From Sinorhizobium numidicum (lineage in GTDB: Bacteria; Pseudomonadota; Alphaproteobacteria; Rhizobiales; Rhizobiaceae), in contig NZ_CP120368.1 of assembly GCF_029892045.1 (NCBI RefSeq), positions 1,424,001 through 1,488,000 on the forward strand: a stretch of DNA of 64,000 nucleotides, read 5' to 3'. The stretch's first letter is position 1. Every line of letters starts with the position of its first letter. The notes beneath the pieces are model-generated. The model was not told where the DNA came from. It worked only from the letters and a program-made list of their open reading frames with translations, and searched no databases. Shown piece by piece: positions 41,410 through 43,193 of the stretch. The position numbers were made by a program, and so were the translations under genes.

Positions 41410-42716
41410 GCGACCTTTTTTCCCCCTCGGAACCCCCGGAGATGGCGTCGGCAAGACCGCTAGCCGACCGGCTGCGGCCGCGCACGCTTGCCGAGGTGAC
41501 CGGACAGGAACATCTGACCGGCGAGCATGGCGCTTTGACGCGCATGATTTCCTCCGGTTCTCTCGGTTCCATGATCTTCTGGGGACCGCCGGGTACCGGC
41601 AAGACCACCGTGGCGCGGCTGCTTTCGGGCGAGGCTGGCCTCGCCTTCGAACAGATCTCGGCGATCTTCTCCGGTGTTGCGGACTTGAAGAAGGTGTTCG
41701 ATGCCGCCCGCGTCAGACGAATGTCCGGACGCCAGACGCTGCTTTTCGTCGACGAGATTCATCGCTTCAATCGGGCGCAGCAGGATAGCTTCCTTCCGGT
41801 GATGGAAGATGGCACGATCATTCTCGTTGGCGCCACCACCGAAAACCCATCCTTCGAGCTCAATGCCGCGCTGCTGTCGCGGGCGCGGGTGCTGACGTTC
41901 AAGCCGCTTGGCGAAGCGAGCCTCGAAGAGCTCTTGAAGCGGGCAGAGAAAGCCGAGGGCAAGTCGCTGCCGCTCGATGAGAATGCCCGTGCAAACCTCA
42001 TCCGGATGGCCGACGGCGATGGCCGCGCTGTGTTGACGCTCGCGGAAGAGGTCTGGCGCGCGGCGCGTCGGGACGAAATCTTCGATGCGGCCGCGCTCCA
42101 GGACATCGTCCAGCGCCGCGCTCCGGTTTACGATAAGGGCCAGGACGGCCACTACAATCTGATATCGGCGCTTCACAAGTCCGTGCGCGGATCCGATCCG
42201 GACGCAGCGCTCTACTATCTCTGCCGCATGTTCGACGCCGGCGAGGACCCGCTCTATATCGGCAGACGACTTGTGCGTATGGCTATCGAGGATATCGGAC
42301 TCGCCGATCCGCAAGCACTAGTGATCTGTAACGCCGCCAAGGACGCTTACGATTATCTCGGGTCTCCCGAAGGGGAATTGGCTCTGGCGGAAGCTTGCGT
42401 TTATGTCGCCACGGCACCGAAGTCGAACGCGGTCTACACCGCCTACAAGGCGGCGATGCGCGCGGCAAAGGAAAATGGTTCGCTGCTGCCGCCGAAGCAT
42501 ATCCTCAATGCCCCGACGAAGCTCATGAAGGGCGAGGGATATGGCGAGGGGTATCGCTACGACCACGACGAGCCAGATGCGTTTTCGGGACAGGATTATT
42601 TCCCGGAGAAGATGGGACGAAAAACGTTTTACGACCCTCCGGAGCGCGGCTTCGAGCGCGAACTTCGCAAGCGGCTCGATTGGTGGGCGAAGCTCCGGCG
42701 CGAGCGGAATTCGTAG
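41406..42716 (+). CDS. rarA: Replication-associated recombination protein A (RarA/MgsA)
   Basis: A 436-residue AAA+ ATPase of the clamp-loader-like RarA family (eukaryotic WRNIP1), which acts at stalled replication forks. Walker A GPPGTGKT is at 60-67, Walker B LLFVDEIHRFN near 112-122 and the sensor ATTENPSFELN follows. The C-terminal helical tetramerisation domain contains HYNLISALHKSVRGSDPDAALYYL. It starts inside the stop codon of the HtrA-type protease gene, so the two are translationally coupled despite unrelated roles. Confidence 0.93.
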   Translation: MSDLFSPSEPPEMASARPLADRLRPRTLAEVTGQEHLTGEHGALTRMISSGSLGSMIFWGPPGTGKTTVARLLSGEAGLAFEQISAIFSGVADLKKVFDAARVRRMSGRQTLLFVDEIHRFNRAQQDSFLPVMEDGTIILVGATTENPSFELNAALLSRARVLTFKPLGEASLEELLKRAEKAEGKSLPLDENARANLIRMADGDGRAVLTLAEEVWRAARRDEIFDAAALQDIVQRRAPVYDKGQDGHYNLISALHKSVRGSDPDAALYYLCRMFDAGEDPLYIGRRLVRMAIEDIGLADPQALVICNAAKDAYDYLGSPEGELALAEACVYVATAPKSNAVYTAYKAAMRAAKENGSLLPPKHILNAPTKLMKGEGYGEGYRYDHDEPDAFSGQDYFPEKMGRKTFYDPPERGFERELRKRLDWWAKLRRERNS

Positions 42717-42800
42717 CGCAAGGTCTGTCGGGGTTGCAGGGCAGGCTTGTCGGGCGATGTCTTGCTGCCCCAATCGGCTTATGGCATAGCAACGCAACAC

Positions 42801-42873
42801 TGCAGACGACTGCACGGGTTGACGTTGTCGATCCGCCCATCCGCGGGGACGGCCTCGCTCCAGACGAAGGAGC
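42801..42873 (+). promoter_or_regulatory. Guanidine-II (mini-ykkC) riboswitch
   Basis: Two short hairpins have ACGR tetraloops: P1 TGCAG-ACGA-CTGCA (42801-42814) and P2 GCGGGG-ACGG-CCTCGC (42843-42858, one G-U pair). They are separated by 28 nt, within the known range of this class. This is the defining structure of the guanidine-II riboswitch. A third, competing stem GCTCC/GGAGC (42857-42861 with 42869-42873) would mask the AAGGAG ribosome site of gdx and shares bases with P2. Ligand-stabilised P2 should free translation. Confidence 0.87.
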
Positions 42874-42878
42874 TTGAA

Positions 42879-43193
42879 ATGGCCTGGATCACCCTTCTCA
42901 TTGCCGGCATTCTCGAAATCGGTTGGGCAATCGGTCTCAAATATACGGATGGATTCACGCGCTTTATGCCGACGGTGCTAACCGTCGGCTCAATGGTCCT
43001 GAGTATTATGCTGCTCGGGATGGCCGTCCGTTCGCTGCCGCTCGGAACGGCCTACGCGGTGTGGACAGGCATCGGCACCGTTGGCACGGTCGTGCTCGGT
43101 ATCGTCCTCTTCGGCGAGCCTGTGACTGCCGTGCGCCTCGGCTGCGTTGGCCTCATTGTCGCGGGTATTGGCGGCCTCAAGCTCATTGCCTGA
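42879..43193 (+). CDS. gdx: Guanidinium exporter Gdx (SMR family, formerly SugE)
   Basis: A 104-residue four-helix small multidrug resistance protein. The membrane-embedded Glu13 and the Gdx-type residues Gly10, Trp16 and Lys22 ([13 protein letters not shown]) distinguish it from EmrE-type drug exporters. It should form antiparallel dimers exchanging guanidinium for protons. The guanidine-II riboswitch directly upstream supports this substrate. The ATG at 42879 lies 6 nt after AAGGAG. It converges on the ATP12 gene. Confidence 0.92.

Follow-up and report, generated by a model that had tools for sequence, protein, structure and literature searches.

In the guanidine-II riboswitches of Gloeobacter violaceus and Escherichia coli, two GC-rich hairpins with ACGR tetraloops closed by G-C pairs precede a gene for an SMR exporter; for guanidine-II riboswitches in general, the linker between these hairpins, P1 and P2, is stated to span 7-40 nt (PMC7544219). 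For G. violaceus, Huang et al. proposed a stem loop that overlaps both P2 and the ribosome site and excludes the folded riboswitch (PMC5486947). The E. coli model follows the logic of a translational on-switch and places the anti-ribosome-site strand in the P1-P2 linker (PMC9300104, PMC9094411). A 20-bp deletion in the P2 region of E. coli is reported to go with constitutive gdx expression, which fits a repressing free state, although the scheme in the same paper draws P1 and P2 as the off state, unlike the model presented here (PMC13064478). Dissociation constants of the E. coli aptamer are 59 µM with two ACGA loops (AA), 133 µM for the wild type (AG), 165 µM for GA and 264 µM for GG, and G in both loops is called rare in nature (PMC9300104). 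PMC7544219, PMC9300104 and PMC9094411 report ACGG loops as weaker binders and leave open whether P1 and P2 kiss within or between molecules.

We compared these systems with the gdx leader of Sinorhizobium numidicum, located in a 64,000-nucleotide stretch of contig NZ_CP120368.1 (the window; positions are counted from its first letter). Judged from its sequence, the element in this leader is a divergent guanidine-II riboswitch, and the leader and gene are organised as follows.

42762..42790, + strand: probable promoter, TTGCTG (42762-42767), a 17-nt spacer and CATAGC (42785-42790), from a loose pattern
42801..42814, + strand: P1 hairpin, 5 bp TGCAG/CTGCA with loop ACGA (42806-42809), from sequence
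42815..42835, + strand: linker hairpin, CGGGTTGAC-GTT-GTCGATCCG, nine pairs including two G-U, flush with P1, from folding and covariation
42836..42842, + strand: unpaired bridge of 7 nt from the linker hairpin to P2
42843..42858, + strand: P2 hairpin, GCGGGG-ACGG-CCTCGC with loop ACGG (42849-42852), from sequence
42857..42873, + strand: competing anti-ribosome-site hairpin (the mask), GCTCC (42857-42861) with GGAGC (42869-42873)
42867..42872, + strand: ribosome binding site AAGGAG, 6 nt 5' of the ATG, from sequence
42879..43193, + strand: gdx, a sugE-type SMR guanidinium exporter of 104 aa, ATG at 42879 and stop at 43191-43193

The linker between P1 and P2 measures 28 nt (42815-42842), 21 nt of which are occupied by the linker hairpin, and 20 nt lie between P2 and the gdx ATG. 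Two bases of the window, G42857 and C42858, belong to both P2 and the mask. Transcription may start just 5' of P1, and in 26 of 32 genus loci the loose promoter pattern is matched at a comparable position, twice with a spacer of 18 nt. The gdx product passes the NCBIfam SugE equivalog (129.2 bits, cut-off 126), and its best solved relative is 6wk5, which we take to be Gdx-Clo (109 bits; best EmrE 37.7). It contains E13, W16, S42, Y59 and W62. PMC9574504, which names 6WK9, the sister entry of 6wk5, gives Glu13, Trp16, Ser42, Tyr59 and Trp62 as the Gdx-subtype set, though Tyr59 and Glu13 also occur in other SMR subtypes, so that these residues alone are no proof of the subtype. The genes next to gdx encode a trypsin/PDZ protease and an MgsA-type ATPase (stop at 42716), and those for an ATP12 chaperone, a HAD hydrolase and a pseudouridine synthase are convergent to it; given these neighbours, gdx is probably transcribed as a single gene. 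The two hairpins with ACGA and ACGG loops 28 nt apart that the original prediction had described hold at every coordinate, the sequence bears out its GCTCC/GGAGC stem over AAGGAG with G42857 and C42858 also in P2, and equivalog, 6wk5 and residue set confirm the SMR gene with Gdx-type residues. It had overlooked the linker hairpin (42815-42835) and the bias of the relatives towards ACGG in both loops.

Close orthologues of gdx are present in 31 of the 32 other genus genomes; in the remaining one, the draft genome G008, the gene exists only as two fragments (contig 31, 1389-1619). P1, P2 and a mask of 4-5 bp precede gdx at the same place in all 32 genus loci read, a set that includes the window genome and leaves out G008 as the 33rd. 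Of the five other SMR genes counted in the window genome, three were inspected, and none of these is preceded by an ACGR hairpin of ≥4 bp within 200 nt. A covariance model (R1) built from 30 distinct genus sequences was run on 394 family genomes; it matched 97 at E≤0.5, among them 62 at E<1e-3 (8 of the genus). The 55 non-genus loci read (to E 0.0013) are spread over 14 further genera, and each of them is followed by an SMR gene, recognised by motif in 52 and read from the DNA in three (L142, L144, L145); most of seven weaker loci that were also read look like chance. An exact P1 plus P2 core pattern occurs at at least 120 places in named genomes. Among the core-pattern matches listed, 79 of 80 titles are rhizobial and one is Caldimonas, whose locus L205 fits the pattern with a short linker; a loose pattern detects an SMR-like frame after each of the 120 matches listed and of two further loci.

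Some genomes (L038, L046-L050, L053, L054) carry another SMR gene, 50-52% identical to that of the window, with no ACGR hairpins upstream. Within at most about 100 nt before its start, a strongly conserved block around AAGGTGCGTAATTGC and GGTGCC is found, perhaps a regulator site. Further, elements resembling the Brucella sRNA CI27 lie beside gdx in two genus genomes (L016 1212-1353 and 1805-1965; L035 1810-1967) and score 56.3, 55.4 and 36.6 bits against a cut-off of 59.8; they are perhaps a repeat family.

As P1, P2 and the mask are almost invariant within the genus, its alignment holds little covariation information. A family alignment of 67 sequences (12 genus, 55 others) was fitted to R1, and this fitting favours the structure; 96.1% of its cells are paired, and in 12 of 17 pairs both partners vary. 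Double-changed cells number 198, compared with 62.9 in shuffled and at most 48 in slid versions. Both-side changes affect four of five pairs in P1, all six in the linker hairpin and two of six in P2, where the evidence is thin. Loop-anchored, alignment-free counts agree with the alignment. Among 83 distinct family sequences, P1 pairs 1-4 from the loop are kept in all, with replacements at three of the four, pair 5 is kept in 69, and a G-C pair closes the loops of both P1 and P2 throughout. The third pair of P2 from the loop is GU, GC or AU, with few changes elsewhere.

A second model (R2) was built from the 67 sequences with the linker left unpaired. At E≤0.07 it recovered 17 of 30 strong Rfam-positive guanidine-II loci of the order, two of the 17 being near-identical, with a best E of 5.7e-6; it matches the window, whose leader is part of the model, at 5.3e-15. 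Several class traits are found at this locus, namely two ACGR tetraloop hairpins closed by G-C pairs, a linker whose 28 nt fall within 7-40, and a position close to the ribosome site of a SugE/Gdx-type SMR gene. Conservation, covariation and the recognition of Rfam-positive loci by R2 point to a divergent guanidine-II riboswitch, and together with the protein matches they support both the class and the gdx target originally proposed. R1 on 297 order genomes gave, beyond three family genomes, 12 weak matches known by score alone (E 0.005-0.046), and R2 on 337 class genomes gave five besides the window (L289-L293). In L289, which belongs to another family of the same class, a 10-bp linker hairpin starts 1 nt after P1 and ends 7 nt before a P2 of GCGGGGACGGCCTCGC, followed by an SMR gene, so the three-hairpin leader is not entirely exclusive to the family. 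In L290, L292 and L293 the linker folds otherwise than in L289, and L291 is without a clear hairpin pair.

The standard Rfam model, RF01068, does not report the window element. Its search of 801 nt around the locus returned no match at E≤1, and on 184 nt the element reaches 15.3 bits (E 0.45), below the gathering cut-off of 32. A search of the same genome listed seven other sites at 14.4-16.3 bits and left the window element unlisted, and none of the 20 genus loci scanned matched at E≤10. The original prediction had named a missing Rfam covariance match as its own refutation, and the match is indeed missing. RF01068 was also run on 20 relatives with linkers of different lengths. All five with linkers of 14-16 nt reach 25.9-32.2 bits, and one of these rhizobial loci, L143, passes the cut-off at 32.2 bits; of 14 with linkers of ≥19 nt, 11 are without a match at E≤10 and three score 20.1-26 bits. 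Another relative, L151, scores 20.0 bits. Since short-linker relatives score high and most long-linker relatives are lost, we regard the miss as a false negative and rejected Rfam as the sole judge. We attribute the low score to the long structured linker, possibly with a contribution from the unusual P1; the miss does not contradict the assignment. The cut-off is a detection threshold rather than biology, and the element is therefore best described as a variant of the riboswitch class, not as an RF01068 hit.

The most distinctive feature of the rhizobial leaders is the structured linker. In 71 of 83 distinct sequences a hairpin follows P1 at a distance of 0-1 nt and leaves 6-8 nt to P2 (4.2 expected with shuffled linkers), several pair types occur at each of its six pairs, and a slightly looser rule holds for 106 of 110 distinct linkers among the core-pattern matches listed. 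Linker lengths in the family set range from 14 to 40 nt. Of the 12 sequences outside the rule, seven have open linkers of 14-16 nt (L137, L138, L140, L141, L147, L143, L146), L142 and L144 have a hairpin and a longer bridge, and L020, L074 and L131 have another computed fold. The linker hairpin of the rhizobial locus L122, GCCGGA-ACGA-TCCGGT, would give this leader three ACGR loops. The canonical RF01068 members of the same order, although recognised by R2, differ in this respect: their linkers (28, taken from 30 loci with one unparsed and one duplicate) measure 13-21 nt and are mostly unstructured, one of the 28 folding at -4 kcal/mol or better and none combining a stem of ≥4 bp flush against P1 with a bridge of 6-8 nt. 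Some canonical loci of the order (L101, L105, L107, L294, L298, L305, L310) precede genes of the chlorhexidine-efflux type, assigned by Pfam BTP for L101 (155.8 bits) and by similar N-termini for the others. We take this type to be PACE; our literature search joining guanidine-II riboswitches with chlorhexidine-efflux genes found none.

The loops deviate as well. Among the 67 rhizobial rows, 46 have ACGG/ACGG, 18 ACGA/ACGG and three ACGA/ACGA, and the P2 loop is ACGG in 80 of 83 distinct sequences. The window itself has ACGA/ACGG, the pair of E. coli, and is alone among the 30 distinct genus sequences in having ACGA in P1. Among the loci of the order found with Rfam, ACGG/ACGG is absent from 29 strong ones, a set that favours ACGA by construction, and present in three of 20 weaker ones; one of these, L296, is perhaps a false match. 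The 120 core-pattern matches listed, in which ACGG in P2 is fixed by the pattern, split into 45 with ACGG and 75 with ACGA in P1; thus, the ACGG/ACGG bias is strong in Sinorhizobium and does not extend to every rhizobial genus. The linker hairpin accompanies 58 of 61 distinct ACGG/ACGG cores and 15 of 20 others. In the genus of L137, L138, L140, L141 and L147, P1 has ACGA and the linker hairpin is missing, while L119, its one member with ACGG in P1, has the hairpin; counterexamples by the script's rule are L136, L143 and L146. Given these and the confounding by descent, the association is a lead only.

Upstream of gdx, a helix of ≥4 bp over GGAG occurs in 55 of 58 distinct sequences, three loci lacking GGAG having been dropped, compared with 13.0 expected when the spacer is shuffled. 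The mask shares at least one nucleotide with P2 in 81 of 84 sequences, and the ribosome site is less than 20% open in free folds of 72 of 84 family sequences. The original prediction also held that P2 and the mask compete to form an on-switch, and folding supports this in part: by computed stability, 27 of 32 genus sequences favour the masked state and five full P2, but forcing P2 frees the site only partly, raising its mean accessibility over 84 sequences from 0.08 to 0.24 and that of the window from 0.01 to 0.13. Accessibility rose in 77 of the 84, was not raised in seven and exceeded 0.5 in seven. Neither the kissing contacts nor the ribosome enter into these energies, which therefore speak for the direction of the switch but not for its size. 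With so few bases in common, P2 and the mask are not strictly exclusive.

From these observations, the gdx leader very probably contains a guanidine-II (mini-ykkC) riboswitch with the mask as its off state and a guanidinium-locked P2 as its on state, most likely a translational on-switch. We infer a mechanism in which guanidinium is the ligand and, in its absence, GCTCC would pair with GGAGC and hold the ribosome site while P2 is open or frayed. Guanidinium would bind both ACGR loops, which would then kiss via C-G steps; kissing may lock P2 at full length and withdraw G42857 and C42858 from the mask, and the weakened mask would permit translation of the exporter. The linker hairpin would be stacked on P1 and joined to P2 by the 7-nt bridge. 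Such a P2-mask switch is plausible and not new, since it closely resembles the proposal for G. violaceus, where the mechanism is already set out in outline (PMC5486947).

Other explanations of the same leader differ in how much they have to disregard. The probability that the ACGR hairpins are chance occurrences in a GC-rich leader is practically nil: the RF01068 score does lie at the chance level of the genome, but conservation, covariation and cross-recognition with Rfam-positive members refute this reading. Covariation also bears on the inverted repeat in the linker, which might instead be a DNA operator for a gdx repressor, unrelated to an RNA switch. In the window this repeat comprises 9+9 positions, 7 of 9 complementary as DNA, just 3' of the probable promoter, as would suit an operator. 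Between genera, however, the sequence is replaced with the pairing kept, its size varies, and in 71 of 83 sequences the hairpin keeps its distances to P1 (0-1 nt) and to P2 (6-8 nt). Kept pairing, varying size and fixed spacing are RNA-like and unlike a protein site, and on the strength of the covariation a protein operator was considered very improbable.

Control might instead be exerted on transcription, by attenuation or Rho access, as leader hairpins could in general gate elongation. Yet no T run follows any of the hairpins, and 55 of 58 distinct sequences retain a mask over the ribosome site, which makes this quite unlikely. Somewhat different is the idea that the fold is right and the rhizobial ligand is another guanidino compound, or that a much higher concentration is needed. 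It would be in line with the frequency of ACGG/ACGG in the rhizobial rows (46 of 67; in the order, none of 29 strong and three of 20 weaker loci) and with the 264 µM of this loop pair in E. coli compared with 133 µM for the wild type (PMC9300104). We nevertheless consider it unlikely: an SMR exporter lies downstream in 55 of 55 non-genus loci, ACGG loops still bind guanidinium in E. coli according to the same text, and the window has the same ACGA/ACGG loops as E. coli.

Guanidinium-responsive control of translation through P2 and the mask is thus the reading we prefer. The rhizobial leaders differ from the described systems in several ways. Where those systems have an open strand, the linker here forms a covarying hairpin followed by a bridge of 6-8 nt, the P1 stem is GCAG/CTGC-like, the P2 loop is ACGG in 80 of 83 sequences and both loops are ACGG in 46 of 67. 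Unlike in E. coli, the window linker is tied up in the hairpin, and the anti-ribosome-site strand lies at and just past the 3' end of P2; because the hairpin takes up the linker, the geometry of G. violaceus is likelier than that of E. coli. We infer that the linker hairpin takes up linker sequence, fixes a short distance between P1 and P2 and favours intramolecular kissing. More tentatively, guanidine-II riboswitches of the Rhizobiaceae may share a three-hairpin architecture in which the linker hairpin, variable in sequence and conserved in structure, would act as a strut of fixed length that lowers the entropy cost of intramolecular kissing, lets the weak ACGG/ACGG pair work and shifts the anti-ribosome-site strand out of the linker to the 3' border of P2. 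The structured linker and the frequent ACGG/ACGG loops are the new part, as far as the literature searched shows; we found no report of a structured guanidine-II linker there, and some primary papers may mention one.

The standard RNA library is incomplete here: at E≤10, RF01068 matched none of the 20 genus loci scanned and missed 11 of 14 long-linker relatives, while the exact core pattern occurs at at least 120 places in named genomes. Because the rhizobial lineage naturally combines a structured linker with frequent ACGG/ACGG loops, deleting or resizing one hairpin would allow tests of two points from the published work, kissing within or between molecules and the weaker binding of ACGG loops. 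If the linker hairpin is indeed a strut, these leaders would provide a natural full-length RNA for a direct test of P1-P2 kissing in cis, which is disputed for E. coli. For the family, our results describe a variant three-hairpin form of the guanidine-II riboswitch that is common to the relatives of S. numidicum in several rhizobial genera.
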